Shown piece after piece: positions 27,721 to 46,147 of a stretch of DNA of 64,000 nt. This stretch comes from Cytobacillus dafuensis (GTDB lineage Bacteria; Bacillota; Bacilli; Bacillales; Cytobacillaceae): positions 1,034,001 through 1,098,000 of the forward strand of contig NZ_CP042593.1 of assembly GCF_007995155.1 (NCBI RefSeq). The letters are read 5' to 3'. Both the position numbers and the translations under genes were made by a program. Positions within the stretch are counted from its first letter, which is position 1. The number at the start of each line of letters is the position of its first letter. The notes beneath the pieces were generated by a model. It was not told the origin of the DNA and made no database searches. It saw only the letters and a list, made by a program, of their open reading frames with translations.

Positions 27721-27938
27721 TTTTATCGCAGATTAACGGGCAGTAAGACCCTCACTTCAAGGATTCGCGTATGCAAAGAAGAGTAAGTGGGGGATCAACT
27801 GCCCGTAAATGCCCGACGACGGACACGATGTCCTAGTCAGGCGAAAGCCACAGGACGTGGCGTTTTGAGCGTGATTGGTTCAACTAACCATCAGTGGGGG
27901 ATGAAGAAAAACCCCCACTGATGGAAGTTTCACTTTAT
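27721..27938 (+). repeat. Class-2 two-hairpin repeat, copy 1 (with class-3-like insertion)
   Basis: Left hairpin: GGGCAGT and CCCTCACTT pair with AAGTGGGGG and ACTGCCC; right hairpin: CATCAGTGGGGG with CCCCCACTGATG; then AAGTTTCACTTTAT. Compared with copies 2 and 3 it carries about 58 extra bases (27814-27872), including GCCAC-AGGAC-GTGGC, that resemble the class-3 element at 46187. It forms the upstream region of the ECF sigma gene, whose RBS lies 10 bases past its end. Confidence 0.85.
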
Positions 27939-27961
27939 TTGTAAATAAGGAGTAATTTGAA

Positions 27962-28513
27962 ATGAAACCCCGTGTGAAGTTAGATTCAAAGCAAGCGATA
28001 GAGCAATATTTCGAGGAATGTATTATAGAGCATGGCCGCTCTTTATTAAATTATATTTATACATTAGTAAAGCATAAGGAACTTGCTGAAGATCTTTATC
28101 AGGAAGTATTAATATCGGCATTCATCGCATTACCATCCTTTGAAGAAAGAGCAAACGTCAAGAGCTGGTTATTTACAATTGCGATGAACAAATGCCGTGA
28201 TTACTGGAGAAAAGAAAAATCCGCAAAAGTTTTTTGGGAAGAGAAGGTTTATATGTATGTGAATGACACGAAAAGTGTTCACCTACCAGAGGAATCGGTT
28301 ATTGATCAATGCAACCAGAGAGAAATGAAAGACAAGTTGAAAAAGCTTCCGAAAATGTATCGTGATCCCTTATTATTATTTTATTATCATCAGCAGACAT
28401 TAATGGAAATAAGCAATACGACTAAATTGCCGCTTTCAACAGTAAAAACACGGATGAAAAGAGCAAAAGATCGGCTTCGTCCAAAGGTAGAAGAACTTGT
28501 TGTTACTGTATAA
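27962..28513 (+). CDS. ECF-type sigma-70 family RNA polymerase sigma factor
   Basis: 183 residues. Region 2 (about 22-90) includes LAEDLYQEVLISAF and VKSWLFTIAMNKCRDYWR; region 4 (about 120-175) includes MYRDPLLLFYYHQQTLMEIS and LSTVKTRMKRAKDRL. This two-domain form is typical of extracytoplasmic-function sigma factors (YlaC/SigW-like size). No anti-sigma gene follows: a terminator lies 6 bases after the stop. Its upstream region is wholly made of repeats (class 1 copy B plus class 2 copy 1), and another class-2 copy lies just downstream in the same orientation. Confidence 0.9.
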   Translation: MKPRVKLDSKQAIEQYFEECIIEHGRSLLNYIYTLVKHKELAEDLYQEVLISAFIALPSFEERANVKSWLFTIAMNKCRDYWRKEKSAKVFWEEKVYMYVNDTKSVHLPEESVIDQCNQREMKDKLKKLPKMYRDPLLLFYYHQQTLMEISNTTKLPLSTVKTRMKRAKDRLRPKVEELVVTV

Positions 28514-28518
28514 AAATA

Positions 28519-28543
28519 AAGAGCAGCCAAGAAGGCTGCTCTT
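28519..28543 (+). terminator. Terminator of the ECF sigma gene
   Basis: AAGAGCAGCC and GGCTGCTCTT form a perfect 10-bp stem with a five-base loop; the tail is A-rich rather than T-rich, so strength is uncertain. Confidence 0.65.
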
Positions 28544-28564
28544 AAAAATAATTACATATTTTTA

Positions 28565-28723
28565 TTTATCGCAGATTAACGGGCAGTAAGACCCCCACTT
28601 CAAGGTTGGAGAGAATTAAAGAAACCTAAGTGGGGGATCAACTGCCCGTAAAGGCCCGATTGGTTCAACTAACCATCAGTGGGGGATGAAAGAAAACCCC
28701 CACTGATGGAAGTTTCACTTTAT
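28565..28723 (+). repeat. Class-2 two-hairpin repeat, copy 2
   Basis: Same order as copy 1 without the insertion: GGGCAGT...CCCCCACTT / AAGTGGGGG...ACTGCCC, then GGTTCAACTAACC, then CATCAGTGGGGG / CCCCCACTGATG and AAGTTTCACTTTAT. The apical part of the first hairpin differs (AGGTT/AACCT pair). Its right end supplies the stop codon of the convergent thioesterase gene. Confidence 0.9.
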
Positions 28724-29218
28724 CCCATATGTATTGACTCTATTTTCACTATCTATTTTTCTTTTTTTTCTGATTTCTGCTCGTTCTTTTGCAGAATTAA
28801 ATAAGCTTTTCTCTTCTTCTGTCTGAGGAATGACTGCAGGAACTTGTGTTGGTTTCCCATCTTCTTCAACAGCTACCATTGTTAGAAAGGACATGGCACA
28901 TACATTGCTTTCGCCAGTAAGTAAATTTTCCGCCATCACTTTCACAAAAACCTCCATAGAAGTTCTTCCTGTAAATGTAACAAATGCTTCTAAGCAAACG
29001 GCATCTCCTTCATGAATAGGATGCAGGAAATCAACTGAATCAGTGGAAGCCGTTACGACACTTTTTCTGGCATGTCGCATCGCTGATATCGCCGCCACAT
29101 CGTCAATGTAAGCCATTAGCTTTCCACCAAATAATGTCCCATAAGTATTCGTATCTGGCGGCAGAACGATACTTGTTTTAACGACAAATGACTCTTTACA
29201 ATATTTTGATTCTTGCAT
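28715..29218 (-). CDS. ykhA: Hotdog-fold acyl-CoA thioesterase (YkhA-like)
   Basis: 167 residues. The acyl-CoA thioester hydrolase signature is seen in PPDTNTYGTLFGGKLMAYIDDVAAISAMRHA (discontinuous elements: N-x-x-G-x-x-x-G-G near 24-32, D near 39) and SVDFLHPIHEGD. Homologs (YciA/YkhA) hydrolyse short- to long-chain acyl-CoAs. GGGAGGCCAAT precedes the ATG. The last Lys codon and stop lie within the end of the class-2 repeat, so the native C-terminus was probably defined by that insertion. Convergent with the sigma gene. Confidence 0.9.
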   Translation of the reverse strand: MQESKYCKESFVVKTSIVLPPDTNTYGTLFGGKLMAYIDDVAAISAMRHARKSVVTASTDSVDFLHPIHEGDAVCLEAFVTFTGRTSMEVFVKVMAENLLTGESNVCAMSFLTMVAVEEDGKPTQVPAVIPQTEEEKSLFNSAKERAEIRKKRKIDSENRVNTYGIK

Positions 29219-29337
29219 ATTGGCCTCCCAAATCTTCTCGTATTTAAATTAATCATAACAAAGTAATATTAAAATTGATTAAAGATTTTTTTGAAAATGA
29301 TAAAAATATTGCAAAATGAAATTATAAGCTTTACAAT

Positions 29338-29356
29338 TTAATTGACCGGTGTTCAA
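29338..29356. promoter_or_regulatory. Putative TetR operator (upstream of its own gene)
   Basis: On the minus strand TTGAACACCGGTCAATTAA; its core TTGAAC-N3-GGTCAA is a near palindrome. A 16/19 match occurs at 30055-30073 before the epimerase gene. It lies 18 bases upstream of the TetR start. Confidence 0.55.
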
Positions 29357-29373
29357 AATGAAAGGTGATTGAA

Positions 29374-29946
29374 ATGACTCCTAGAAAACTTGCTAAAGAT
29401 GAATTGACAAAGGATGCTATTATTGATGTAGCTCGTGATCTGTTTGTAACGGAAGGGTATCGTTCTACTTCCATGAGGAAAATTGCACAAACCCTGAAAT
29501 GCAGTCACGGTGCCATTTACTATCATTTCAAAAATAAAGCAGAGCTATTTTATGAAATAGTGGAAGCGGACTTCAAAAGGCTTGATCAAGAACTAGATGA
29601 CGTAATGGCTGATATGGCCTCCTCAAATGATGAAAAAATCTATGCTATTTTGTATGGCTTTATTAGATTTGGTCTGACTCACCAAAAGCATTATGAAGTG
29701 ATGTTCTTGATTCGTGATGAAGAGCTTCAATGCAAAGTTGAAGACAAACCAAATAAAAGCTATGACAAATTTGCTCAGACTATTGCCAGCTTGAGCGCTA
29801 AAGAGCTTTCGCCAAATGAAATTTGGTCTCTATTTATAAGTATGCACGGCTTTGTGTCCCATTATTGCAGATCAGATATAAAATTTGATGATGTGAAGAA
29901 TCTTGCTTCATCACATGCACACTTTTTAATTAAGGCAATTAATTAA
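29374..29946 (+). CDS. TetR/AcrR-family transcriptional regulator
   Basis: 190 residues from ATG 29374 (AAAGGTGATTGAA upstream; the GTG nine bases earlier lies within that RBS). The N-terminal helix-turn-helix (about 10-57) has FVTEGYRSTSMRKIAQTLKCSHGAIYYHFKNKAEL, recognised by its spaced motifs. The C-terminal ligand domain is variable. An operator-like dyad sits directly upstream, and a related copy precedes the following epimerase gene, so the protein probably represses itself and that gene. A terminator separates the two genes. Confidence 0.92.
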   Translation: MTPRKLAKDELTKDAIIDVARDLFVTEGYRSTSMRKIAQTLKCSHGAIYYHFKNKAELFYEIVEADFKRLDQELDDVMADMASSNDEKIYAILYGFIRFGLTHQKHYEVMFLIRDEELQCKVEDKPNKSYDKFAQTIASLSAKELSPNEIWSLFISMHGFVSHYCRSDIKFDDVKNLASSHAHFLIKAIN

Positions 29947-30020
29947 AGAAACACAAGTTATAGTTAGTAAAAGAGTTCAACTTGATTTCATATGCTTAGT
30001 GAATTTTACTTTCAGATAGG

Positions 30021-30043
30021 ACTTGGCAAACGCCAAGTTTTTA
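30021..30043 (+). terminator. Terminator of the tetR-type gene
   Basis: ACTTGGC and GCCAAGT pair around a four-base loop, followed by five Ts. Confidence 0.75.
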
Positions 30044-30054
30044 AAAACACATAT

Positions 30055-30073
30055 TTGAACAGTGGTTAATTAA
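30055..30073. promoter_or_regulatory. Second putative TetR operator (upstream of epimerase)
   Basis: TTGAACAGTGGTTAATTAA matches the element at 29338-29356 (opposite orientation) at 16 of 19 positions. It lies between the tetR terminator and the epimerase start, where a promoter is expected. Confidence 0.55.
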
Positions 30074-30094
30074 TTATAAAAGGAGATTGATAAT

Positions 30095-31045
30095 ATGAAA
30101 ACAGCCGCAGTATTAGGTGCAACAGGTGGAATGGGAAATGCATTAACAGAGGCATTGATTGAAAGGAATATTAAACCGATCGCATTTGCGAGGTCTAAAG
30201 AAAACTTAATTAATAAGCAAATGGAATGGGGATTATCAAAGGAAGATATTATGGAGGGGGATGCTTTGAATCAACAGGATGTAGCTCAGGTTGTATCAAA
30301 AGCGGACGTCGTATTTCACACGATGAATATTCCATATCAAGATTGGGAGCCGAATCTTTCTACTATACTTTCTAATGTTCTAGAAGAATGCCGAAAGCAA
30401 AACAAACCATTTGTTTACGTAGATAATATTTATTCTTATGGATTACAAGATTCCAAAGTAACAGAAACAGCTAGGAAAAATCCACATACAAAGAAGGGAA
30501 AGCTAAGACAAAGGCTGCTTGATCAAATTGGACGTTCGAATATTCCCTATATCATCGCTCATTTTCCAGATTTTTATGGTCCACATACTGGAAATACCCA
30601 ATTGCACTATACACTTGAACAAATCGTAAATAAAAAGTCCGGTAGATTTGTTGGTAAAACTGATATTCAAAGGGAGTTTATTTATATAAAGGATGGAGCT
30701 CGTGCATTAGTAGATTTAGCATTGAAGGAAGAGGCATACGGGGAAGTCTGGAATATTCCAGGGGCTGGAACCATTACAGGAAAGGAAATAGAGCGGATTG
30801 CGTCTTCTTACTTGGAAAAGGAAATCGCACTAAAGCCTGTCCATAAGTGGATGATTCAAGCAATGGGACTATTCAATCCGTTTATGAAAGAGTATGTAGA
30901 GATGATGTATTTAAATGAAACTCCAGTCATTTTAGATGGAAGCAAATATGAAAAAATCATTGGGCCTGTTCCAAAAACGCCATATGAGGAAGGAATTAGA
31001 GAAACATTAAAATTCATTATGGAAAATAAGAAAGTTTCGTCATAA
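30095..31045 (+). CDS. NAD(P)-dependent epimerase/dehydratase-like protein (extended SDR)
   Basis: 316 residues. The N-terminal Rossmann motif is VLGATGGMGNAL (6-17). FVYVDNIYSYG (about 107-117) aligns with the strand and helix region carrying the usual Tyr of SDR enzymes, and HFPDFYGP follows the pattern of NAD-dependent epimerases. The C-terminal part (EVWNIPGAGTITGKEI) fits substrate-domain sequences of this group. AAAGGAGATTGATA precedes the ATG. It is a probable target of the TetR protein upstream, which suggests a ligand-induced detoxification or modification role. Substrate unknown. Confidence 0.87.
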   Translation: MKTAAVLGATGGMGNALTEALIERNIKPIAFARSKENLINKQMEWGLSKEDIMEGDALNQQDVAQVVSKADVVFHTMNIPYQDWEPNLSTILSNVLEECRKQNKPFVYVDNIYSYGLQDSKVTETARKNPHTKKGKLRQRLLDQIGRSNIPYIIAHFPDFYGPHTGNTQLHYTLEQIVNKKSGRFVGKTDIQREFIYIKDGARALVDLALKEEAYGEVWNIPGAGTITGKEIERIASSYLEKEIALKPVHKWMIQAMGLFNPFMKEYVEMMYLNETPVILDGSKYEKIIGPVPKTPYEEGIRETLKFIMENKKVSS

Positions 31046-31092
31046 TAATTTGAAGTAAAATGTAAAATATGTAAATTATATATAAGAAAAAG

Positions 31093-31179
31093 ACTACAAT
31101 CAGATTCTTGTATAATCCAAACTCCTTACTTTTGAAAAGGTCTGTCTAGGAGTATATATTTAATTTTTAGGATTGTAGT
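31093..31179 (+). promoter_or_regulatory. Nested inverted repeats in the ggt upstream region
   Basis: ACTACAATC (31093-31101) pairs with GATTGTAGT (31171-31179), and inside it ACTCCT (31121-31126) pairs with AGGAGT (31148-31153). A TATAAT hexamer lies at 31111. It may be a leader structure or operator region; no known riboswitch fits. Confidence 0.3.
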
Positions 31180-31252
31180 TTAAATTTTCAAACTCTTCTG
31201 TTTGTTTTGGTAAAATAGATTTGAAGTAAAACTAAAAATGAGGAGGGAAAGG

Positions 31253-33022
31253 ATGAAAAAGATATGGAAAGCTAGTTTAGCCATTTTATTTAGCGCCCTA
31301 CTGATCGTGGGGACATTCCCTTTTAGCACTCAAGCCAAAGGGAAAAAGCTTGAATACGATCGCTATAGCCAGGTTGCAGTTGGAAAGGACGGGATGGTAG
31401 CAACAGCACACCCATTAGCATCTGAAATAGGTGCTGATGTACTGAAAAAGGGTGGTAATGCGATTGATGCAGCTGTAGCCATTCAATTTGCGCTGAATGC
31501 TGTAGAGCCAATGATGTCCGGAATTGGCGGAGGCGGTTTTATGATGGTTTATGATGGTAAAACAAAGGAAACAACTATCATTAATAGTCGTGAAAGAGCC
31601 CCGCAAGGAGCAACCCCTAATATGTTTTTAGATAAAAACGGAAATCCCATTCCATTTGCTGAGCGTTCAACAGGAGGTACTGCAGTTGGGGTGCCAGGAA
31701 CGCTAAAAGGGCTGGAAAAGGCATTGGAAAGATGGGGAACTCGTCCGATGCAGCAGTTAATTGACCCAGCTATTAAGCTTGCTGATAAAGGTTTTCCGAT
31801 TGACTCTGTGTTAGCTGCAGCGATTTCCGATAATAAAGGAACGTTGTCGAAAACAGCAGCAAAAGATATTTTTCTTCCAGACGGCAAACCTTTGCTTGAA
31901 GGGGAAATACTTGTCCAAAAAGATTTAGCTAAGACCTTTAAACTGATTCGCTCAAAAGGGGCAGATGCCTTTTATAAGGGGCCGGTAGCTGAGGCACTCG
32001 CAAGTACTGTTCAAAAATATGGCGGTTCAATGACGACAGAGGATTTGAAAAAATATAAAGTAACGATTGACAAGCCAATTTGGGGCGACTATCAAGGGTA
32101 TCAGATTGCTAGTATGCCGCCTCCAAGCTCTGGCGGGGTGTTCCTCCTGCAAATGCTTAAGATATTAGATGATTTTAACCTATCTCAATATCATGTAGGA
32201 TCATGGCAAAAATATCATCTTCTTGCGGAGACAATGCATCTTGCATATGCTGACCGTGCCGCATTTGCAGGTGATCCAGAGTTTGTTAATGTACCATTGA
32301 ATGGACTCTTGCATCCAGATTATATTAAAGAGCGTCAAAAGCTTATTAACTTAAAAAGTGTGAACATGAATCCAACGGAAGGGAACCCATGGAAATATGA
32401 ATCCACTGCTGCAAATTATGAACAGAAAAAACAGCCAAATGATCGTAAATATGGAGAAACGACTCACTTCTCTGTTACAGACAGATGGGGAAATGTCGTT
32501 TCCTATACGACAACCATTGAGCAATTATTTGGTACCGGAATTGTAGTTCCAGGATATGGGGTTGTTTTGAATAATGAGTTGACTGACTTTGATGCTGTTC
32601 CTGGTGGAGCAAATGAAGTACAGCCGAATAAGCGTCCTTTAAGCAGTATGACGCCTACAATCGTGTTCAAGGATGGCAAGCCGGTTCTAACAGTTGGTTC
32701 TCCAGGTGGTGCAACGATCATCACATCTGTATTACAAACGATTCTTCATGCAATTGAGTATGATATGGAGCTGAAGGCAGCGGTTGAAGAGCCTAGAATC
32801 TATACAAATAACTTAAGCTCTTACCGTTATGAATCAGGTATCTCCAAAGATGTTATCGATAAGCTGAATTCAATGGGTCATAAATTTGGCACAAATCCTG
32901 TTACAATCGGAAATGTACAAAGTATTTTAATCGATCACAAAAATGGTACGTTCAAAGGAGTGGCAGATTCAAGCCGCAACGGAGCTGCTATTGGAGTAAA
33001 TTTAAAAGGGAAGAAGAAATAA
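31253..33022 (+). CDS. ggt: Gamma-glutamyltranspeptidase precursor
   Basis: 589 residues from ATG 31253 (AGGAGGGAAAGG upstream). A signal peptide (about 1-28, ending FSTQAKG) directs export. The large subunit carries the conserved GGGGFMMVYD and RERAP elements. Autocleavage would occur before T403 in the T-T-H-F-S motif, which starts the small subunit and is the catalytic nucleophile; PLSSMTPTIVF and GSPGG complete the active site. The enzyme hydrolyses or transfers gamma-glutamyl groups from glutathione, glutamine or poly-gamma-glutamate outside the cell. Monocistronic with a strong terminator. Confidence 0.95.
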   Translation: MKKIWKASLAILFSALLIVGTFPFSTQAKGKKLEYDRYSQVAVGKDGMVATAHPLASEIGADVLKKGGNAIDAAVAIQFALNAVEPMMSGIGGGGFMMVYDGKTKETTIINSRERAPQGATPNMFLDKNGNPIPFAERSTGGTAVGVPGTLKGLEKALERWGTRPMQQLIDPAIKLADKGFPIDSVLAAAISDNKGTLSKTAAKDIFLPDGKPLLEGEILVQKDLAKTFKLIRSKGADAFYKGPVAEALASTVQKYGGSMTTEDLKKYKVTIDKPIWGDYQGYQIASMPPPSSGGVFLLQMLKILDDFNLSQYHVGSWQKYHLLAETMHLAYADRAAFAGDPEFVNVPLNGLLHPDYIKERQKLINLKSVNMNPTEGNPWKYESTAANYEQKKQPNDRKYGETTHFSVTDRWGNVVSYTTTIEQLFGTGIVVPGYGVVLNNELTDFDAVPGGANEVQPNKRPLSSMTPTIVFKDGKPVLTVGSPGGATIITSVLQTILHAIEYDMELKAAVEEPRIYTNNLSSYRYESGISKDVIDKLNSMGHKFGTNPVTIGNVQSILIDHKNGTFKGVADSSRNGAAIGVNLKGKKK

Positions 33023-33031
33023 TTGAAGTGG

Positions 33032-33061
33032 TAAGCGCCTCATAATATGGGGCGTTTTTTT
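33032..33061 (+). terminator. Terminator of ggt
   Basis: CGCCTCAT and ATGGGGCG (G-U pairs included) form a stem with a three-base loop followed by seven Ts. Confidence 0.85.
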
Positions 33062-33102
33062 GACCTTTTACGAACAGTGTCAGGCACTGTTCGTAAAAGG
33101 TC
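33062..33102. repeat. Perfect 18-bp hairpin, class-4-related (GTGTCAGGCAC core)
   Basis: GACCTTTTACGAACAGTG and its exact complement CACTGTTCGTAAAAGGTC flank the loop TCAGG. The centre GTGTCAGGCAC and the CGAACA arm are shared with the class-4 elements at 17607 and 51055. It directly follows the ggt terminator. Confidence 0.7.
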
Positions 33103-33185
33103 AATTCATAATATATTGATTTGCTAAAGGAATAAGTTTTCAAAACTTTAATTGATGTTCATAAAATGAATGGAGTTACTAGCTA

Positions 33186-36104
33186 TTAATTTTTGACGGG
33201 TAAAATAACTTCAACGGTCGTACCTTTATCGATTTCACTATCGATCATAATCTGTCCTTGATGCTCTTTTATAATTTTGTAACACATCATTAATCCTAAA
33301 CCCGTTCCTTTTTCTTTAAGACTATAAAAAGGTTCTCCGAGATATGGAATACGTTCATTTGGAATCCCAATCCCCTGATCGCTAAAGCGAATCAATAACT
33401 GGTTGTTTTCAAGCTTCATTGTTTTCACATTTATTTCTCCACCGTTGGGCATTGATTCAATTGCGTTTTTTAAGATATTAATAAATACTTGTTTTAATTG
33501 GTTAACATCACAGGTAATCATGGGAATATCTGCTTCTGATTCAACAATGATTTGTACATTATTCATTAATGCTTCAGGTGATACAATCATCGAGACCTCT
33601 TCTATTAAGTCTTGTAAGGCATGTGATTGTATTGTAATAGCTTGGGGCTTGGCTACAGCCATAAACTGATTTGTTATCGACTCAATTCGATTAACCTCTG
33701 AAACCATTACATCTAAATACCAGCTATTTTTCTTATCGGTAGTAGAATCTAGTAAACTTAAGAAACCTTTAAGTGAAGTTAAAGGATTTCTAATCTCATG
33801 TGCAATTCCAGCTGATAATTGACCGACCACAGCGAGTTTTTCTGACTTTCTTAATAATTCTTCCGTTAGTTTCTTTTCCGTAATATCTCGCCCTATGATG
33901 ACGAGCCCGTTGCGACTGCCATCTGAATGAAAAATAGGAACCTTTATGACATCAAAAATGGTAGATTTGCCGTTAGGGTGTGAAATAACTTCTTCAGTTC
34001 GGAAAATTTGTCTTTTTTCCCATGCTTCTTCATCTGTTTTATCACAAAAAGTTAATGTATCCCGATAAAATTCATTATAGGAAGCAAGTTCCGAATTCGT
34101 TTTTCCTTGGTAAGAGACATTTTCAAGTTGAAAACAGGAACGAACATACTGATTTGCAACGAGCCACCTTCCTTCCCCATCTTTAAAGAGTACAGTGTCA
34201 GGCATTGCATTAATTAGGGTGCGTAATCGTTTCTCACTTTCTTTCAATGCCTTCTCCATTTGTTTACGTTCCGAAATATTCCTTAAGATCGCAACGATGG
34301 CTGTTACCTTTCCTTTATCGTTTATAATTGGCGAATAAAAGCTGCTGATATCTATAAGATTTTCATCTTTTCGTTTACAGATGGTTTCAAAAGACATAAC
34401 TTGTTTGTTTTTCAATATTATTGGAAGAATTTCAGTAAACTCTTTTAGTAGAAAATTAGGAACAATTGGTAATTTTCGGCCTAATACTTCATCTTCAGTC
34501 CAACCAAATATTTCTTCAAAAGCTTTATTCACTTTCATGATCTTTCCTTGTAAATCAAAAATAATGATAGAATCTATTGTATTCTTAAGGAATAGCTCAA
34601 GCTGTTGTTTCGTAAATTGCAAATCTTTTTCAATTTGCTTATTTTCGGTATTGTCTTTTATGATTTCATATATTCCAGCAATCTCGTTATTGATAAAAAG
34701 TGGAAAGCTTTTTACTTTTGCATCAATAAGATATCCATTTTTGTGTTTAAACGACACTTCATATTCCTGCATGATTCCTGTCTTTGTTTTTTTCAGATGT
34801 TTTAATCGGTTTTCAGCATACTCAGGTAGAATCAAAGTGGAAAGTGGCAATCTTTGAAGTTCTTCAACTGAATATCCAACGATTCGCTCAAAAGCCGGAT
34901 TCGCTGTTAAAAGATTTTCCTGTAAATCACATGAATAGATACCATCAGGATTATGTTCAAAAAGTGCTTGATAAAATTCTGTATCTCTGATAACTGGGTT
35001 CACAGGATCTTGTTCTCTTAAAGCGAGATCTTGGGATAATTCCAAATTGTTTGTTCTTGAAAGTAATGGTGCTGTTTCCTTTTTTACATGAGGAAAAATA
35101 TTGTCGATTCCAAATGTTGAGTCATAAGAATTAAAAATAGTTGGTGGAAATACATAAACGATAGCGCCTATTGACATTCCTCCATAAATATATGGATGCA
35201 ATTCAAAACGCCAAATTCCTTTTTGATGTTCTAATTCCCAATTCACCCTTGATGTTAAAGTTAAGGATAGTGAAGGGGACGTTACTAAGTAATGATTTGC
35301 ATTAATCAAGCCTTCTTCATATAAAATTGGGGATGCTTTAATTACATTCCATCCACGATCTAAGGCAATTAAATAAGAATTTGATCGTCTTGTGATTGCT
35401 TGTGCCTGATAATATTCAATTAGTTTATAACGTTCCAATTCTAATTGGTTACGAAGAATTGCTGCCGCATCATGTGCAGCAGAATTTACTGCTGATAATA
35501 ATTGAGGATGATTCTCTGTCCATAGTCCAGTCATATCGATTACTCCTAGGATTTCCCTTGTTGCAGGATCTAGGATTGGAGCAGCTGAACATGTCCATTG
35601 ATGTAATTCATGGCAAAAATGTTCCCCTGCGAACACTTGAATTGGTGAGCCAGTTGCAAGGGCAGTACCAATCGCATTTGTACCAGACGTATTTTCAGCC
35701 CAAGAAGAGCCTATAACAAAGTTTATATCCTCTGCTTTTAACCTTAATGCCAAATCGCCGTCTAAATAGGTTATATCACCAGAAGAATTACAATAAGTGA
35801 TTAGATGTCTAGAATCCAGAAAATGATCCTTTAAACGAGAAAGTATCGGTTTTAGAATCCGGAATAAGGAATCAGATGATAAAAAATCTCTGATTTGTTC
35901 TTCATTAAGATTAATAGAGGCCCTATTCTCATAAGGATTAACTCCATTGTCCTTGCAACGCATCCATGATTCATACATCAAAGGACTGATTATAGAAGAG
36001 GGGGAATTACCAGTAATAAACTGTTCCCACTCATGTTTCAGCTTTTTCTTCCTTGTTATAGGAGAAGCAAAGGTATCCAAAGCTATTTGATTATTCGTTT
36101 TCAT
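33186..36104 (-). CDS. Orphan PAS-domain histidine kinase with AcoR/DhaR-type N-terminal sensor
   Basis: 972 residues from ATG 36104 (TTGGAGGTATACAA upstream). Residues about 20-260 match the sensor region of sigma-54 activators such as AcoR/DhaR: SW-x-RC...GVNPYENR, GTNAIGTALATGSPIQVF, EHFC and CSAAPILDP followed by GVIDMTG. Then come three PAS domains (about 370-480, 490-605 and 615-730), a HisKA domain (GQLSAGIAHEIRNPLTSLKG, phosphoacceptor His near 755) and a HATPase domain ending about 970 (NAIESMPNGG, GTGLGLMMCYKI). There is no AAA+ or Fis domain. No response regulator is adjacent, so it could feed a phosphorelay such as Spo0. Unusual fusion; ligand unknown. Confidence 0.9.
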   Translation of the reverse strand: MKTNNQIALDTFASPITRKKKLKHEWEQFITGNSPSSIISPLMYESWMRCKDNGVNPYENRASINLNEEQIRDFLSSDSLFRILKPILSRLKDHFLDSRHLITYCNSSGDITYLDGDLALRLKAEDINFVIGSSWAENTSGTNAIGTALATGSPIQVFAGEHFCHELHQWTCSAAPILDPATREILGVIDMTGLWTENHPQLLSAVNSAAHDAAAILRNQLELERYKLIEYYQAQAITRRSNSYLIALDRGWNVIKASPILYEEGLINANHYLVTSPSLSLTLTSRVNWELEHQKGIWRFELHPYIYGGMSIGAIVYVFPPTIFNSYDSTFGIDNIFPHVKKETAPLLSRTNNLELSQDLALREQDPVNPVIRDTEFYQALFEHNPDGIYSCDLQENLLTANPAFERIVGYSVEELQRLPLSTLILPEYAENRLKHLKKTKTGIMQEYEVSFKHKNGYLIDAKVKSFPLFINNEIAGIYEIIKDNTENKQIEKDLQFTKQQLELFLKNTIDSIIIFDLQGKIMKVNKAFEEIFGWTEDEVLGRKLPIVPNFLLKEFTEILPIILKNKQVMSFETICKRKDENLIDISSFYSPIINDKGKVTAIVAILRNISERKQMEKALKESEKRLRTLINAMPDTVLFKDGEGRWLVANQYVRSCFQLENVSYQGKTNSELASYNEFYRDTLTFCDKTDEEAWEKRQIFRTEEVISHPNGKSTIFDVIKVPIFHSDGSRNGLVIIGRDITEKKLTEELLRKSEKLAVVGQLSAGIAHEIRNPLTSLKGFLSLLDSTTDKKNSWYLDVMVSEVNRIESITNQFMAVAKPQAITIQSHALQDLIEEVSMIVSPEALMNNVQIIVESEADIPMITCDVNQLKQVFINILKNAIESMPNGGEINVKTMKLENNQLLIRFSDQGIGIPNERIPYLGEPFYSLKEKGTGLGLMMCYKIIKEHQGQIMIDSEIDKGTTVEVILPVKN

Positions 36105-37538: not shown

Positions 37539-37541
37539 AAT

Positions 37542-38039
37542 TTAAAAAAATAAAACCATATGCTCTTCATCGTAATAGGTATTTCCTATTTTTAAAGCTC
37601 TTTTTTCCTCAGCATATACCTCAAAACCGAAAGATTCATAAAGCTTTTTGGCAGGCTCATTCGTTGCCTCAACAGACAAGTATACTTGCTCAACCTCTCC
37701 AAGTTCTTTTGCTTTTTCAAGTGCATTAGCTATTAATGCTTTACCGATCCCCATTCTACGCTTTTCAGGTGACACATACATCGCAACAATATTTGCTCGG
37801 TGTTTCAATTTGAGCTTTGTTTCCTTCAGTAGAGTAACAGTCCCTAATAATTCCTCGTTTTCAAAAGCTCCAAATGTGAACGAATTCTCCGTTTGAAATC
37901 GATTTTTATAAACATCCTTAGAGTATGCAGTTTCCTCCTCGTAGCTTGAGGCAAAGGCTTCAGGATGTTTCTGTAGAGCCATTAATCTTATATTTCTATA
38001 GGCATCAGAATCATTCGGCGCTAAAAGTCTAATATTCAT
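37542..38039 (-). CDS. GNAT-family N-acetyltransferase
   Basis: 165 residues from ATG 38039, preceded by AAGGTGGAGCAA; the longer frame start has no RBS. The acetyl-CoA binding loop is YVSPEKRRMGIGKALI (Q/R-x-x-G-x-G/A type), followed by VYLSVEATNEPAKKLYESFGF, the normal motif-B region. GNAT enzymes acetylate amines of proteins, antibiotics or metabolites; the substrate cannot be told. The 3' end abuts repeat copy C. Confidence 0.88.
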   Translation of the reverse strand: MNIRLLAPNDSDAYRNIRLMALQKHPEAFASSYEEETAYSKDVYKNRFQTENSFTFGAFENEELLGTVTLLKETKLKLKHRANIVAMYVSPEKRRMGIGKALIANALEKAKELGEVEQVYLSVEATNEPAKKLYESFGFEVYAEEKRALKIGNTYYDEEHMVLFF

Positions 38040-38238
38040 TTGCTCCACCTTCTTTAATTTTTCTTTAATTCTACCATTTTTAAACAAAATTTAAACAAGG
38101 CTAATAACAAATTTAACCTTTCAATATTTAAATAAAGGAGAATATAGAAGATGAAAACGGGTGCTTGCTTTTAAAGCCCATTCATAATGGAAATGATAGT
38201 TGTAATTAGCCTCTAATTTTTTGGTTTTGGAGAAGATG

Positions 38239-39753: not shown

Positions 39754-39760
39754 AATGATG

Positions 39761-39790
39761 CAGCTTCTCGTTTCGAGGGGCTGTTTTTTT
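39761..39790 (+). terminator. Terminator of cls
   Basis: CAGCTTCTCG and CGAGGGGCTG pair around a three-base loop, followed by seven Ts. Confidence 0.85.
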
Positions 39791-39861
39791 ATTTAAAGCC
39801 TTGAAGCTCACGCAACGTGATCTTTTACAATGGAGTTATCAATGATAAGGGAGAGAGTTCA

Positions 39862-40800
39862 ATGGAGGAGAAAATATTCCATCTTAAAGACGGCAGAAAA
39901 TTAGGTTTTATTGAGTATGGAAAAAATGATGGAATTCCGGTGATGATATTTCATGGAACACCTGGATCTAAAATATGGTATAGGAAGGATGACGAGATCG
40001 CGCGAGAGCTTGGTTTAAGACTAATCTCGACTGATAGACCCGGATTTGGTACATCTGATCCAAACAAAAATAGAACTTTGCTAGATTGGCCGAATGATGT
40101 AAAGGAGCTGGCTAATGGCCTTGGAATCGAAAGGTTTTCTGTATTAGGTGTATCAGGCGGCGGAGCTTATGCTGCAGCATGTGCTTATCAAATACCAGAA
40201 AGACTTGATCATGTATCCATGATTTCAAGCGTAGCTCCATTCAAAAACGGCAAGCCGCCGAAAAGTATGATAAAAGAAAATCGAATAGCTTTTTCTTTAG
40301 GGAAATATGTACCATGGCTAGTCAAGCTTTCCTATCAATCACAGAAAAAAATGATCGAGCAGAAGCCAGAAAGATTTATTGAGGTAATGAAAAAAGGAAA
40401 TAAACATCTAAATGAGTGGGATCGAAAATATACTCAAACAGATGATCAGATTAAAGACATGATGGCTCATTTATTAGGAGCCTTTCGCATTAGGGTGGAT
40501 GGAATTGTAGAAGAACTCAAATTAATAACTAACCCGTGGGGATTCGAATTGGAAAAAATACAAATGCCTGTCCATATCTGGCATGGAAAAGAGGATGGAA
40601 TGGCCCCGTTTGAAGAAATTGAAAAAGTATCCAAGGAAATACCTATTTCAATCACTCACTTTGTTTCGAAGGCAGGTCATTTTTTAATCGATGATGAGAC
40701 AATTTGGAGATCCATTTTAGAACAAATTAAGGAAGATCATTTATTATTTGTGGGAAAAGAAGGCCTCATTAGTAGTAAAAAAAGGAAAAAATTAGTATAA
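39862..40800 (+). CDS. Alpha/beta-hydrolase fold protein
   Basis: 312 residues from ATG 39862 (GGGAGAGAGTTCA upstream). The oxyanion region is FHGTPGS, the nucleophile elbow is LGVSGGGAYA (Ser near 97 in G-V-S-G-G), the acid is probably in HIWHGKEDGMAPF, and the catalytic His is in KAGHFLIDD. This is a typical soluble esterase/hydrolase of the proline-iminopeptidase-like group; substrate unknown. It lies 50 bases upstream of tldD in the same direction and may be co-transcribed with tldD-tldE. Confidence 0.88.
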   Translation: MEEKIFHLKDGRKLGFIEYGKNDGIPVMIFHGTPGSKIWYRKDDEIARELGLRLISTDRPGFGTSDPNKNRTLLDWPNDVKELANGLGIERFSVLGVSGGGAYAAACAYQIPERLDHVSMISSVAPFKNGKPPKSMIKENRIAFSLGKYVPWLVKLSYQSQKKMIEQKPERFIEVMKKGNKHLNEWDRKYTQTDDQIKDMMAHLLGAFRIRVDGIVEELKLITNPWGFELEKIQMPVHIWHGKEDGMAPFEEIEKVSKEIPISITHFVSKAGHFLIDDETIWRSILEQIKEDHLLFVGKEGLISSKKRKKLV

Positions 40801-40850
40801 TTATATTGTTTTAATGATTCTGAATTATTAGATCATAAAGGAGGGGTCAT

Positions 40851-42242
40851 ATGCTATCGAAATCTATAATTGAAGACGTCCTAACGGCTGCACTAGCAAC
40901 CGGTGGAGATTTTTCCGAAGTATTCGTTGAAGATCGGTATACAAATAATTTGACACTTCAGGGCGGAAAGATTGAGAACAGCTTGTCAGGCAGGGATTTC
41001 GGGATTGGAATCCGCGTTTTTAAAGGCTTTCATAGTGTGTATACGTACACAACAGATGCAACAAAAGAAGGTTTATTAAAAGCTGCGAGAAATGCAGCAC
41101 ATGCTATTTCTGGAGAAACGATTATCCAGCCAGTACCACTTGTTAAAGAAATAATTACCTGTGCTCATCCGATAGCGATTCATCCACGAGAAACAGAAAA
41201 AATCCGAAAAGTGAATGTAATGAAGAAAGCGTACGAAATTGCCAAGAACTATCATTCGAGCATTCAGCAAGTATTGGTCCGTTATTTGGATGAGGAACAA
41301 AATGTTCTTATTGCTAACAGTGAGGGAATATTTGTTGAAGATAAAAGGGTAAGAGGGAGAATGGCGATTCAGTCCATCGCTTCAGATGGAGTACAAATGC
41401 AGCCTGGCTTTTACGGACCAGGTGCTCATAAGGGATTTGAGTTTTTTGAGAATCTCAATCTCGAGCACTATGCTGGTGAGGCATCACGAATTGCTGTAAC
41501 GATGCTAAGTGCAGAGCCTTGTCCGAGTGGAAAGTTTCCGGTAATTATCGATAATGAATTCGGTGGGGTTATTTTCCATGAGGCTTGTGGACATGGACTA
41601 GAAGCCACAGCTGTAGCAAAGAATAATTCTGTTTTCGCCAATCGAATTGGTGAGAAGGTCGCATCAGAAATCGTTACATATATTGATGACGGAACAATTG
41701 AAAATGAGTGGGGATCGATAACGATTGATGATGAAGGCGAAAAAGCACGGAAAAATGTTTTAATTGAAAATGGGATTTTGAAAGGTTACTTGATTGATAA
41801 ATTTAACGGAAGAAGAATGGGAATGCCTTCAACAGGATCAGGCAGAAGACAGTCATACCGTTTCGCACCTACATCAAGAATGACAAACACCTTTATTGCG
41901 GAAGGGAAGTCAACGCCTGAAGAAATCATTTCCAATACAGAGCATGGCATCTATGCAAAATATATGGGCGGTGGTTCAGTAACTCCGGCTACAGGCGATT
42001 ATAACTTTGCTGTTATGGAAGCGTATCTTGTGAAGGATGGCAAGATCGGCAAGCCGCTTAAAGGAGCTACTCTTGTTGGAAATGGCGCCGAAACATTACA
42101 GCTCGTTGACATGGTCGGAAATAATTTAGGACACGGTGCAGGGATGTGTGGCTCATTAAGCGGAAGTATCCCTGTTAATGTTGGTCAGCCAATGATTCGT
42201 GTAAGTGAAATGACGGTTGGCGGAAGTAAGGAGGCTGAATAA
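40851..42242 (+). CDS. tldD: TldD-type metalloprotease subunit
   Basis: 463 residues. The catalytic zinc motif is H243-E244-A-C-G-H248 followed by GLEATAVAKNNSVFANR, diagnostic of TldD. Other family features are STGSGRRQSYR and GGGSVTPATGDYNF. TldD/TldE form a heterodimeric protease known in enterobacteria to mature microcin B17 and degrade CcdA; in Bacillus the substrate is unknown. AAAGGAGGGGTCAT precedes the ATG. The tldE partner follows immediately. Confidence 0.94.
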   Translation: MLSKSIIEDVLTAALATGGDFSEVFVEDRYTNNLTLQGGKIENSLSGRDFGIGIRVFKGFHSVYTYTTDATKEGLLKAARNAAHAISGETIIQPVPLVKEIITCAHPIAIHPRETEKIRKVNVMKKAYEIAKNYHSSIQQVLVRYLDEEQNVLIANSEGIFVEDKRVRGRMAIQSIASDGVQMQPGFYGPGAHKGFEFFENLNLEHYAGEASRIAVTMLSAEPCPSGKFPVIIDNEFGGVIFHEACGHGLEATAVAKNNSVFANRIGEKVASEIVTYIDDGTIENEWGSITIDDEGEKARKNVLIENGILKGYLIDKFNGRRMGMPSTGSGRRQSYRFAPTSRMTNTFIAEGKSTPEEIISNTEHGIYAKYMGGGSVTPATGDYNFAVMEAYLVKDGKIGKPLKGATLVGNGAETLQLVDMVGNNLGHGAGMCGSLSGSIPVNVGQPMIRVSEMTVGGSKEAE

Positions 42243-42243
42243 G

Positions 42244-43602
42244 ATGAATGTTCAGGAATTCCAGCAAAGATTATTTGGACTTGCAGAGCAGCATGGCTTT
42301 AATGATGTGGAAATTTACTTTGAGCGGGAAGAAAAATTTGGCTGCGCCTTGTTCAAAGGAGAAATCGATTCCTACGAAACATCTGAAGTAGCAGGGGCAT
42401 CATTCCGTGGTCTTTTTAATGGGAAAATGGGGTATGCGTTTACAGAAAAATTAGACGAAGACACCATACAATTTCTTGTTGAAAATGCAAAAGAAAATTC
42501 TCAATTTATAGAAGAAGAAGTACAGGAAGATATTTTTTCCGGAAGTGAGACCTATCATGAAGGCAGCTTTTATTCTTCTGAACTAGCAAAAGTAACAATT
42601 CCGGAAAAGATCACTTTATTTAAAGAAATCGAGAAGCATATTTATGAGTATGATGAAAGAGTAACGGGAACGGATTATTTTATACTCGAAAGTGCTGATT
42701 CAGAGCGTTTTATCATGAATAGCAAGGGACTTTCGCTTAAAGGGAAACATAATTATATCGGGATGTATATTTCTGTTGTTGTTAAGCAAGGAGAAGAAAC
42801 GAAAACTGGTATGTATATTAAGATGACAAGAGATTTCTCTTCCTTTGTTCCCGAAGAAATTGCAAAGTATGCTGTGGAAGAGGCTCTATCAAAGTTGAAC
42901 GCTCAGTCAGCTGAGAGCAAGCGCTATCCTGTTTTATTGAGAAATGATGCAGCAGCTAGTTTACTTCAAACCTTCTCGCCTATTTTTTCTGCAGAATACG
43001 CACAAAAGGGTCAATCGCTTTTAAGAGATAAGGTAGGAGAAGTAATTGCTGCGGAAGAATTACAAATAGTAGATGATCCATTTTTAGAAGATGGGCTTTT
43101 CAGCAGTACGTTTGATAGTGAAGGTGTAGCAACAGTAAAAAAGGAAATTGTGAAGAACGGAAAGTTGATTACTTTGCTTCATAATCGCAAAACAGCTGAG
43201 AAGGCTGGACTAGAAACTACAGGGAATGCTTATAAATCTTCCTATAAAGGGTCTTTGACGGTATCTCCATCAAATTTATATGTCATCCCTTCAAATAAAG
43301 GCTATGAAGAACTCATTAGTTCTATAAGAGAGGGCATCATCGTTACGGATTTAGCAGGATTACATTCAGGAGCTGACTTTGTTTCCGGTAACTTCTCTTT
43401 AGCTGCAAATGGATTTTTTGTTAAAGAAGGAAAAATTCAAAACGCGGTTAAACAAATGACGATTGCCGGTAATTTCTACGATGTATTAAATAACATTGAG
43501 GAAATTGGCTCTGACTTGGAGTTTTCGATGAACTTTGTTGCGCCAGGCTATATTGGTTCCCCTTCGCTATTAATTAAAGAGTTAGCTGTAACAGTCGAAT
43601 AG
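42244..43602 (+). CDS. tldE: TldE/PmbA-type subunit
   Basis: 452 residues from ATG 42244, one base after the tldD stop, with GGAGGCTGAATAAG as RBS. It resembles TldD in fold but lacks the HExxxH motif, as expected for the TldE/PmbA subunit that completes the active site cavity. Recognisable pieces are NYIGMYISVV, FDSEGVATVKKEIV and LHSGADFVSGNFSLAANGFF. Forms an operon with tldD. Directly after the stop a 52-bp tandem hairpin array begins, whose first unit can act as the terminator. Confidence 0.92.
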   Translation: MNVQEFQQRLFGLAEQHGFNDVEIYFEREEKFGCALFKGEIDSYETSEVAGASFRGLFNGKMGYAFTEKLDEDTIQFLVENAKENSQFIEEEVQEDIFSGSETYHEGSFYSSELAKVTIPEKITLFKEIEKHIYEYDERVTGTDYFILESADSERFIMNSKGLSLKGKHNYIGMYISVVVKQGEETKTGMYIKMTRDFSSFVPEEIAKYAVEEALSKLNAQSAESKRYPVLLRNDAAASLLQTFSPIFSAEYAQKGQSLLRDKVGEVIAAEELQIVDDPFLEDGLFSSTFDSEGVATVKKEIVKNGKLITLLHNRKTAEKAGLETTGNAYKSSYKGSLTVSPSNLYVIPSNKGYEELISSIREGIIVTDLAGLHSGADFVSGNFSLAANGFFVKEGKIQNAVKQMTIAGNFYDVLNNIEEIGSDLEFSMNFVAPGYIGSPSLLIKELAVTVE

Positions 43603-43611
43603 CTTAAAAAG

Positions 43612-43950
43612 TGTGGTCTCATAACCTTCATGAGACCACATTTAGTTAATTTCATTTGGAAAGTGGTCACATAAACCTTTTATGAGACCACTTGAAGCTA
43701 AAATCAATTGGGTAAAGGTCACATAAACCTTTCATGAGGCCAAATGAAGCTAAAATCAAGTGGGTAATGGTCACATAAACCTTTCATGAGACCAAATGAA
43801 GCTAAAATCTATTGGGGGATGGTCTCATAAGCCTTTTATGAGACCAAATGAAGCTAAAATCTATTGGGGGATGGTCACATAAACCTTCCATGAGACCATA
43901 TTAAGCTAATATACCTTGAGGACTGGTCTTATAAACCTTCCTTTTAGCAA
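43612..43950 (+). repeat. Tandem array of seven 52-bp hairpin units
   Basis: Units begin with GGTC at 43615, 43665, 43717, 43769, 43821, 43873 and 43925, so the period is 52 bp (50 for the first). Each unit has a hairpin of the form GGTCWCATAA-CCTT-NATGAGACC, then a linker AAATGAAGCTAAAATC and TTGGG. Units 1 and 5 have perfect 8-10 bp stems; others carry one mismatch (A for T at position 5). The seventh is truncated. The period is not a multiple of three and no reading frame runs through it. A further stem (CATAAGTCG / CGACTTTGTG, about 43964-43991) follows. Confidence 0.9.
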
Positions 43951-44097
43951 AAAAGCAGGGACCACATAAGTCGATTTTTGCGACTTTGTGATGCCCCTTC
44001 TTATGTATTCGGAATATAAGGGTTTTTAAGATAACCTCGTCTTTATATTATAACAATAAATACCATCCCGATATTGACTGAAAAGGTGTGTATGCAA

Positions 44098-44637
44098 ATG
44101 GAAATTTTAAACGCAGAACAATTTTTTTTACGTTCACTTACTTTGGAAGATGCTGAAAAGGTAGAGGAATATGCAAGTGATTATGATGTGGCAAAAACAA
44201 CTTTAAATATTCCACATCCCTATCCAAAGGGTTCTGCAAAGGAGTTTATTGCTAATATTTTGGAGGCTGAAAAAGAAGGAAGAGTCATCACATATGCCAT
44301 TGTCCTTAAGGAGGATCATGACTTAATTGGCCTTATCAGTATTCGGCCTGTTATGGAGCATCGTCGCGGCGAGCTTGGCTATTGGATTGGAAAGCCATTT
44401 TGGGGAAAGGGCTATGGAACGGAAGCAGCAAAATTATTAATCAAATATGGATTTGATATTTTAAACTTAAATCGAATTTATGCTGCTGCTTTTACAGACA
44501 ATCCAGGCTCATGGAGAATCATGGAGAAATGTGGAATGAAGCATGAAGGGATTTTACGCAACCATATTCTTAAAGAAGATAAACCAATCGATTTAACGTT
44601 TTACAGTATATTAAAAGAAGAGTATATGAATTTGTAG
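44098..44637 (+). CDS. RimJ/RimL-type GNAT acetyltransferase
   Basis: 179 residues from ATG 44098, nine bases after AAGGTG; upstream in-frame starts at 44074 (TTG) and 44092 (ATG) have poorer spacing. It matches Acetyltransf_3 proteins: FFLRSLTLEDAEKVEEYA at the start, RRGELGYWIGKPFWGKGYGTEA (split features: G-Y-W-I-G and G-K-G-Y-G-T) and NPGSWRIMEKCGMKHEG near the end. Relatives acetylate ribosomal protein N-termini or small amines; target unknown. Confidence 0.88.
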   Translation: MEILNAEQFFLRSLTLEDAEKVEEYASDYDVAKTTLNIPHPYPKGSAKEFIANILEAEKEGRVITYAIVLKEDHDLIGLISIRPVMEHRRGELGYWIGKPFWGKGYGTEAAKLLIKYGFDILNLNRIYAAAFTDNPGSWRIMEKCGMKHEGILRNHILKEDKPIDLTFYSILKEEYMNL

Positions 44638-44746
44638 AATTTAAAGAGCAGTGAAAAGGCTAGAAGAAGTCAAGAAGAAAAAAGATGTTATTTTTACAGA
44701 TCAAAACAATCTAGCAAATGTTAAAATTTTCAATAGAATATAAAAA

Positions 44747-44772
44747 TAGAGTGGATCAAATAATCCACTCTA
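44747..44772. terminator. Bidirectional terminator between GNAT and yetJ
   Basis: TAGAGTGGAT and ATCCACTCTA form a perfect 10-bp stem with a six-base loop between convergent genes; A-rich to the left and partly T-rich to the right. Confidence 0.75.
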
Positions 44773-44808
44773 CTTTCAATGTTTACATATACAACTAGAA
44801 TTAGAATT

Positions 44809-45468
44809 TTAGTCCCTGCTTCCAAGTATTCCGAAAATACGCAGGATATTAATGAATAAGTTAACAAAATCAAGATATAAGTTAAGAGCCATTAAAGGCA
44901 CTTGTTCTGCTGTTACACCATATTGCTTCATACGGTTAAAGTCAAATAGAACGTAACCGCTAAATACTAATACCCCAATAAATGAGAAGGCAAGCATACC
45001 TGAAGAACTTAAAGGCCAGATAAGATTAAAGATTGATATGGCAATGAGTGCCAATAAGGCAGCCATTAACATACCGCCTAAGAAAGTTAAATCACGCTTT
45101 GTAGTTGTAGCGTAAATGGCTAGCCCTGTAAATACAGTTGCAGTAGTTGCAAGTGCTAACAGTACAGGCTCTGGACCAATTGTAGTAAGGTAATGTGAAA
45201 CAATTGGATAAGTTGTTAACCCTGAAATAAAGGTAAAGGCAAATAAGAAGGAATATGACATCGCCTTTTTACGACGAATGATAAACGCAAAGACGAGCAT
45301 TCCGATTTCAAGAAAAACGAGCGGCAGAAACATCGCCGGTGGGACAAAAACACCTGCCATTGTACCGGCAAAGGCAATTCCCAAAGACAAAGCAAAGGTC
45401 CTTAATACGGCTGGTAAATGGCTATTATTATAATTAGCTGTTTGCTGAACATACATTACTTTATTCAC
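44809..45468 (-). CDS. yetJ: Bax inhibitor-1 family membrane protein (YetJ-like)
   Basis: 219 residues with seven hydrophobic helices. The C-terminal signature VLFDFNRM and ALNLYLDFVNLFINILRIFG are the conserved BI-1 segments; the paired Asp residues there form the pH-sensitive latch seen in B. subtilis YetJ, a calcium-leak channel. An alternative start (ATG, residue 5) is equally possible. The adjacent gene is the mechanosensitive channel MscL, in the same orientation 60 bases upstream, so the two may be co-transcribed. Confidence 0.92.
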   Translation of the reverse strand: MNKVMYVQQTANYNNSHLPAVLRTFALSLGIAFAGTMAGVFVPPAMFLPLVFLEIGMLVFAFIIRRKKAMSYSFLFAFTFISGLTTYPIVSHYLTTIGPEPVLLALATTATVFTGLAIYATTTKRDLTFLGGMLMAALLALIAISIFNLIWPLSSSGMLAFSFIGVLVFSGYVLFDFNRMKQYGVTAEQVPLMALNLYLDFVNLFINILRIFGILGSRD

Positions 45469-45529
45469 CTCATCAAGATATGTCTATATATATTTATACG
45501 ATTGTCCATAAAAAGAGTTTCATAAAATT

Positions 45530-45907
45530 TTATTTTTCTTTTAATAAATCTCTTATTTCAGTAAGAAGAGCTTCCGTTTTATCCACTACGACTGGTGCAG
45601 GCTTTGGTTCTTCCTTCTTATTAAAGTGCTTATTAATGATCCTTATGAAAATAAAAATTGAAAAAGCTATGATGAGGAAGTCAAGAATGCTTTGAGCAAA
45701 TGCCCCGATATTTATTTCTGCTTTGCCAACTGTGATGACAAGCTGTTTGGTCAAATCTATTCCGCCAAGAAGTATACCTGTAAGAGGCACGATAATATTT
45801 TCAACCAAAGAGGTGACAATTTTGCCGAATGCTCCTCCAATAACAACCCCAACAGCGAGATCTAATACATTTCCTTTAAATGCGAATTTCTTAAAATCAC
45901 TCCACAT
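45530..45907 (-). CDS. mscL: Large-conductance mechanosensitive channel
   Basis: 125 residues from ATG 45907, giving the canonical opening [20 protein letters not shown]; the longer frame has eight extra untypical residues. TM1 (about 14-40, [20 protein letters not shown]) holds the gating constriction, TM2 spans about 68-92, and a charged C-terminal helix ends [12 protein letters not shown]. It opens under membrane tension to release solutes during hypo-osmotic shock. GGAAGGTG lies about 12 bases upstream. Confidence 0.95.
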
Positions 45908-45986
45908 AGGATACAAACACCTTCCATTCAAAATTATCGTTAATTATACTATTATGATAGGGGAAAATGCTAGATAATAGTATCTT

Positions 45987-46147
45987 TTTTATCGCAGATT
46001 AACGGGCTGTAAGACCCCCACTTCAAGAAGTTGAGCTAAGAAAAAATTTCTAAGTGGGGGATCAACAGCCCGTAAATGCCCGATTGGTTCAACTAACAAT
46101 CAGTGGGGGATGAAGGAAAACCCCCACTGATTGAAGTTTCACTTTAT
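45987..46147 (+). repeat. Class-2 two-hairpin repeat, copy 3
   Basis: Same architecture as copy 2. The outer stem reads GGGCTGT / ACAGCCC where copies 1-2 read GGGCAGT / ACTGCCC, and the second stem reads CAATCAG / CTGATTG where they read CCATCAG / CTGATGG: two compensatory base-pair changes. It is preceded by ATACTATTAT / ATAATAGTAT (45946-45983), a separate 10-bp stem. Confidence 0.9.

Follow-up and report, generated by a model that had tools for sequence, protein, structure and literature searches.

The element and its copies in the window

The window analysed here, a stretch of 64,000 nucleotides (nt) of Cytobacillus dafuensis (contig NZ_CP042593.1, positions 1,034,001 to 1,098,000), carries three copies of a gene-free element of about 155 bases, in none of which is there an open reading frame (ORF) of 80 amino acids or more. 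All three lie on the forward strand, as do their parts and the short derivative located below, and share one plan, in which a composite left hairpin is followed by the conserved GATTGGTTCAACTAAC and by a right hairpin, with TTTAT at both ends. A sequence-only reading of the window had already proposed a dispersed two-hairpin element, and its description of the three copies holds: they lie where it placed them, in the same fixed order, with an outer stem GGGCAGT/ACTGCCC, an inner stem CCCCCACTT/AAGTGGGGG and a second stem ATCAGTGGGGG/CCCCCACTGAT. The compensatory changes that it saw in copy 3 are present (GGGCTGT/ACAGCCC in the outer stem, AACA..TTG replacing AACC..TGG in the second), and so is the T-G wobble in the inner stem of copy 1. 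The TTTAT found at both ends, a nested insert in copy 1 and a short derivative upstream go beyond that reading.

Copy 2 (28565-28723, with its TTTAT target at 28565-28569 and the element proper at 28570-28723) displays the layout in full. Its 5' part reads TTTAT / CGCAGATTA-ACGGGCAGT-AAGA-CCCCCACTT...AAGTGGGGG-ATCA-ACTGCCCGT-AAAGGCCC and continues, after AAAGGCCC, as GATTGGTTCAACTAAC-CATCAGTGGGGG...CCCCCACTGATGG-AAGTTTCAC-TTTAT. The left hairpin, of about 71 nt, is built from an outer stem (5' arm ACGGGCAGT at 28579-28587, 3' arm at 28641-28649) and an inner stem (5' arm CCCCCACTT at 28592-28600, 3' arm at 28628-28636). The conserved GATTGGTTCAACTAAC, at 28658-28673, forms the 5' foot of the right hairpin of about 37 nt, whose arms are CCATCAGTGGGGG (28673-28685) and CCCCCACTGATGG (28697-28709); within this foot AACT (28667-28670) is able to pair with AGTT (28711-28714), and the right terminal TTTAT is at 28719-28723. 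The folding of copy 2 is far more stable than that of shuffled sequences, with z values of -8.0 as RNA and -8.6 as DNA and 0 of 200 shuffles as low in each case.

Copy 1 spans 27722-27938 (TTTAT target at 27722-27726, element proper at 27727-27938) and contains the nested insert, of 58 nt, at about 27815-27872, between the left hairpin and GATTGGTT. Copy 3 occupies 45988-46147, with its TTTAT target at 45988-45992. At 25856-25902 a left foot CAGATTAACGGGC is fused to a right foot CTGATTAAAGTTCCACTTTAT without any hairpin interior; this short form looks like a deletion derivative of the element, and the window genome contains two further short forms.

The ends show no terminal inverted repeat that is visible by eye. 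Among 239 distinct copies TTTAT is found at the right end of 223, a count to be read with the fact that the tolerant search pattern itself includes TTTAT, and at the left end of at least 140. In an alignment of 60 copies described below, TAAC is found near the 5' base of the left hairpin in 49 copies, partly inside the stem, and near that of the right hairpin in all 60, the latter count being partly fixed by the way the copies were collected. Longer forms, mostly of about 210-230 and 260-300 nt, carry extra hairpin cassettes; they occupy many sites, and each probably moves as a unit.

Conservation of both hairpins through compensatory change

Both hairpins are conserved as structure through compensatory change. 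In 104 distinct copies of 140-172 nt (effective number 35.5), each of the six column pairs that covary most strongly falls in a predicted stem or within two columns of one. The stems were then scored over 34 pairs in an alignment, A2, of 60 distinct and divergent copies, for which 221 copies had been thinned to 81 (less than about 91% mutual similarity) and 59 of these aligned together with copy 3 of the window; the 22 thinned copies omitted mostly had a poor or unclear left-end match, and some were simply not transferred. The stems of A2 consist of standard pairs in 92.5% of cells, contain 113 doubly changed cells and reach a covariation score of 0.166. Shuffled alignments average 86.6% paired, 38.6 doubly changed cells and a score of 0.065, and on each of five measures all 500 fall short of the observed value. 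Such shuffles lose the relatedness of the copies, whereas structures slid by 1-3 columns keep it, and the latter peak at 50.3% paired, 26 cells and a score of 0.050. The conservation of structure that the sequence-only reading had noted in three copies is supported by the larger alignment.

The right stem is paired in 98.5% of its cells, the left outer stem in 94.4% and the left inner stem, in which some rows are visibly misaligned, in 76.9%. Part of the conservation of the right half comes from the selection of rows, as the named loci and the matches to R1, a covariance model of the element's right half, were found via that half; tolerant versions of both ends were also part of the scripts by which copies were gathered. 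In Evansella clarkii copies the left stems are rewritten and their pairing is largely retained. The right stem also seems, on the predicted fold, to extend as AACT/AGTT past an A-rich internal loop, in columns that hardly vary. An alternative hairpin, GGTT-CAACT-AACC, had been suggested as a competing fold and does not survive: its G143-C160 pair is formed in 27 of the 60 copies without any double change, whereas the competing 160-196 pair is formed in 59 of 60, with 27 double changes.

At the right end of one copy of the window genome (L013), the right stem has been lengthened to GTTCAACTAACCATCAG.../...CTGATGGTTAGTTGAAC, a perfect palindrome that resembles the outcome of quasi-palindrome correction by template switching. 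Events of this kind can make compensatory changes without selection on RNA. The element is also a general caution against reading compensatory changes within a repeat as a sure sign of RNA.

Insertion at TTTAT, copy number and spread

The element is non-autonomous DNA, conserved in structure and spread through the genomes of many soil bacteria, and it is almost certainly mobile and TTTAT-specific. Insertion sites were compared with a sister species, represented by genome G029 and the named C. citreus records, in which most long segments are 92-95% identical in the region. Four element-bearing sites of the window genome are empty there, all of them joined at TTTAT. Two are exact at the join (L274/G029 and L275/G029; for example GCGGTTTTTAT joined directly to TCGAATATTAATG, against GCGGTTTTTAT, element, TCGAATATTAATG), and the two other empty sites (L284/L155 and L272/L121) show flank differences of a few bases just 3' of the TTTAT join. 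The element stands directly 3' of a TTTAT that the empty site also has, and it ends on the right in TTTAT as well; no conservation beyond TTTAT is found in the flanks of 196 sites. As for the window itself, copy 1 is common to the window genome and G029, minus its 58-nt nested insert in the latter; copy 2 is also present in G029, but with other inserts there; and copy 3 is without counterpart at the orthologous place of G029, where the flank has diverged. Nested inserts keep the ends of the element and break its middle. Copies arranged head to tail with one common TTTAT (L015, L025, L028, L433 and L436) show the arrangement expected from a circle junction or from an insertion at a right end.

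An autonomous form, in which the two ends would enclose a gene, is found at none of 85 right ends in stretches of the window genome, of which 79 have a left end 100-300 nt upstream, 2 belong to short forms and 4 are without a left end. None is recognised either among 120 named loci: a left-end match is present within 600 nt at 101 of them, and 11 of the 19 others are the E. clarkii copies with rewritten left stems. Two ORFs end just upstream of a right end; read by eye, one looks like a solute-binding protein (L117) and the other enters the element (L116).

The window genome, a single contig of 4,916,069 bases, gives at least 45 BLAST matches to copy 2, with the best 40 of 225 candidates scored. 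The exact right-end 12-mer GTTTCACTTTAT occurs 179 times in it, against 2 for the reversed word, and the repeat copies are therefore not due to chance; in the genome G034 the corresponding counts are 94 and 0. Copies in genomes without a PF01797 match (G034, G052) are similar, with medians of 96-97% and best pairs of 98%, and seven copies of G034 have a median of 96%. In the window's family R1 matches 118 of 193 genomes, from 19 of 25 genera, and in a sample of the order it matches 130 of 397, from 64 of 135 genera; these multi-genome searches used stricter filters, so that their counts per genome, topping at 26 in the family and 12 in the order, are lower bounds. Among the pattern-scan matches listed (120 stretches), carriers belong to Cytobacillus, Neobacillus, Peribacillus, Niallia, Evansella, Sporosarcina, Lysinibacillus, Psychrobacillus, Rummeliibacillus, Ectobacillus, Gottfriedia and Heyndrickxia. 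The element has no match in a phage collection at E 1e-5, and a tRNA search gives nothing.

Several diverged or displaced relatives are observed besides. A record of the Klebsiella grimontii plasmid pNY3A (L034) contains a short relative, in which the right half is kept and the left end truncated; it reflects either horizontal transfer or foreign sequence within the record. In five genomes of the genus g90 (L398, L399, L401, L402 and L403), a diverged right half is embedded in leaders that resemble one another; the sequence upstream is also alike, a GGAGGGG motif follows, and the right half is possibly an old copy retained at one site. In three genomes of the same genus (L394, L396 and L397), diverged elements share a right flank that is identical over 15 nt, and ahead of each of them stands a further right end in tandem.

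Of the known families, bcr1 of the Bacillus cereus group comes closest; according to the original 2004 paper it is said to be about 155 bp long, with TTTAT at each end. In later accounts, bcr1 has TTTAT motifs and a mean of 39 copies per strain, ranging from 11 to 130 (PMC6542083, PMC3446304); it measures 147-167 bp in B. anthracis, with a conserved structure (PMC2267715); and the repeats bcr1-bcr3 resemble miniature inverted-repeat transposable elements (MITEs) in structure and function and are often found inside untranslated regions or operons (PMC3446304). Our element is likewise MITE-like, non-autonomous, about 155 bp long, present in tens to more than 100 copies and ended by TTTAT, and in anatomy, as far as descriptions allow comparison, it is of one kind with bcr1. 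The sequence-only reading knew no named RNA of this form, which agrees with Rfam 15, where the 64-kb window has no match at gathering scores; a named DNA repeat of this form does exist, in bcr1. Unlike bcr1, described as specific to the B. cereus group, the element extends over the family and the order as given above. B. cereus-group plasmids yielded no usable match, the only Bacillus record being one of B. arachidis, with 36 bases almost wholly outside the element. Among the open-licence papers listed in literature searches, none describes this repeat outside the B. cereus group, and those listed as containing sequence words of the element are three papers on human disease. What is new here is the breadth, the structure and the missing mobiliser. 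By this account of a very abundant Bacillaceae repeat, elements like bcr1 would not be peculiar to the B. cereus group, and with a structural alignment of 60 copies, defined ends and empty sites, the mobiliser of bcr1-like repeats is open to direct experiment.

Candidate mobilisers

Our preferred explanation, to which we give a probability of roughly 60%, is that these are non-autonomous elements similar to MITEs or to palindrome-associated transposable elements (PATEs), whose two hairpins would mark the ends for a transposase that is supplied in trans and recognises them as single-stranded DNA. That this enzyme is of the Y1 type appears somewhat better than even, by analogy with IS200/IS605 insertion sequences. 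A HUH/Y1-type transposase would bind the two subterminal hairpins, as in IS200/IS605, and cut 3' of TTTAT at each end; the excised element would circularise, and the circle would be inserted on the 3' side of another TTTAT, with the lagging-strand template as the probable target. We favour a Y1 enzyme because insertion 3' of a pentanucleotide, hairpin ends without visible terminal inverted repeat and TAAC near both feet resemble IS200/IS605. The rules of that family, as set out in three papers, are insertion 3' of a tetra- or pentanucleotide with neither terminal inverted repeat nor target-site duplication, a guide 5' of each hairpin, use of the lagging-strand template and a Y1 transposase acting on single-stranded DNA (PMC7290912, PMC5934647, PMC6006769). 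If TAAC is the guide, its AA could pair with TT as in IS608, the other positions fitting uncleanly. PATEs and other miniature IS200/IS605 elements, such as those of Halanaerobium (PMC7290912), share with our element the hairpin ends, the lack of terminal inverted repeats, the location 3' of a fixed pentanucleotide and the non-coding interior. The element differs from them by its high copy number and wide spread, and no parent tnpA/tnpB element with the same ends was found. The IS200-like elements of G036, G165, G167, G072, G075 and G186 were considered as parents and set aside, as their repeat boundaries differ from the element's. Those seen at L441-L449 (G036, G165), of about 760 bp, have left flanks with T-rich sequence that by eye is terminator-like, and ends unlike the element's.

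A number of results weigh against a Y1 enzyme. In surveys of the best search match, one per genome, with up to 1.5 kb of flank on each locus, the right end is found at 0 of 31 Y1 loci and at 0 of 30 TnpB loci of the family, with one chance-level match in each survey. Among 36 genomes of the genus, 20 have both the element and PF01797, 11 the element only, 3 PF01797 only and 2 neither. G034, with its 94 right ends, has no PF01797 and no RAYT match, its one TnpB match being at a locus outside the 30 surveyed, and G052, with at least 26 R1 matches, has no PF01797, RAYT or TnpB match. Either, then, a Y1 element enters and leaves these genomes, or the movement is the work of a different enzyme. Moreover, the hairpins are longer than the 20-25 nt stated for IS200/IS605 ends, and the pairing of TAAC with TTTAT departs from the IS608 rule at some positions.

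The strand of insertion weighs on both sides. In genomes whose contig begins at dnaA, the strand of the element as written is the lagging-strand template for 134 of 179 right ends in the window genome, 58 of 78 in G005 and 68 of 94 in G034, 79 of the 179 and 22 of the 94 being assigned to the left half from position order. This bias of 72-75% is about what gene orientation alone would give and is a further point against the Y1 explanation. For the best model matches the lagging-strand-template share is 21/22 in G165, 10/12 in G271, 6/7 in G005, 7/10 in G034 and 2/4 in G061, and only 18/26 in the window genome, which weighs in the same direction; G053 (11/12) and G535 (1/11) were set aside because dnaA was not found at their contig start. 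Most of these values are close to the proportion of genes that usually lies on the leading strand. In a survey of gene contexts at 81 sites, 21 are co-directional, 7 convergent, 6 divergent and 47 undetermined, and 10 of the 13 convergent or divergent sites are in the replication-linked direction (P 0.09). As the other shares are near the gene share, only G165 and these 10 of 13 sites speak, weakly, for a link to replication.

The alternative that survives best, clearly less probable than a Y1 enzyme and yet to be taken seriously, keeps the same anatomy and gives the movement to another agent, which could be an unrecognised nuclease, a site-specific recombinase, host machinery or SINE-like (short interspersed element) reverse transcription of a structured transcript. 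This hairpin-ended, TTTAT-specific DNA family would then be mobilised across the Bacillales without Y1, and bcr1 of the B. cereus group would be one of its branches. The argument for it is that 11 genomes of the genus carry the element without a PF01797 match, mostly in many copies and one with 94 right ends; copies in the PF01797-free G034 and G052 are abundant and similar, at the medians given above, and the conserved structure is also compatible with an RNA intermediate. Site preference, end geometry and the lack of visible terminal inverted repeats nevertheless all match IS200/IS605, and as gain and loss of Y1 genes may occur, their present absence is weak evidence.

That the copies are retained for an RNA function, as a cis-regulatory or small structured RNA, is improbable. 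The stem covariation would fit it, and in a study of two B. cereus strains, many bcr repeats lie within transcripts (84/165 and 62/155; PMC3446304). Recognition of hairpin ends as DNA predicts the same covariation, however, and empty sister-species sites, tandem arrays, mixed gene contexts and nested inserts that break the middle all speak against an RNA function, as does the perfect palindrome of L013, which looks like template switching on DNA. The sequence-only reading had proposed selection on RNA (or cruciform) structure: the conserved hairpins stand, with cruciform or DNA structure fitting better, and the primacy of RNA does not, in view of the mobile insertions, empty sites and tandem arrays.

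Still less probable is movement as repetitive extragenic palindromic (REP) sequences by a resident RAYT (TnpA-REP). REPs and REPINs are also dispersed hairpin repeats, their movement in trans being attributed to Y1 proteins, and the window genome encodes one RAYT-like Y1 protein of 189 amino acids, which scores 52.9 bits on NF047646, under the cut-off of 80. No copy of the element lies within 1.5 kb of its gene, however. RAYT homologues, matched in 146 of the family's 193 genomes, show no evident relation to the element: they are present in the element-free G037, G038 and G049, and that of G029 has in-frame stops. RAYT as a required partner was rejected, since carriers such as G034 and G052 have no RAYT match. 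The element is also much longer than a REP, with TTTAT ends, no tie to a resident RAYT and a TAAC foot, against the GTAG/GTGG found at the foot of REP hairpins (PMC6006769, PMC3733652). Finally, a miniature IS605-type element whose right end would be the omega RNA of a TnpB nuclease is hardly credible, for although a right-end hairpin beside TTTAT is similar to such ends in general plan, TnpB has no match in the window genome or in 29 of the 36 genus members, and the right end is absent from the 30 family TnpB loci surveyed above.

The window contains other repeats. Directly downstream of copy 3, at 46157-46367, lies a second dispersed repeat with dozens of matches in the genus and motifs like GACAGGACGTCGCG. 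A long dispersed repeat of about 220-245 nt (GGGAGACCCCGCAGGAGCG...GAGGAGGCTYCCGGACCGCCCGCG) is present at 13688-13932 and 27493-27715, with 95-97% identity between the two copies, and a tandem array with a 52-nt period occupies 43575-43938, with 66-84% identity between 156-nt stretches.

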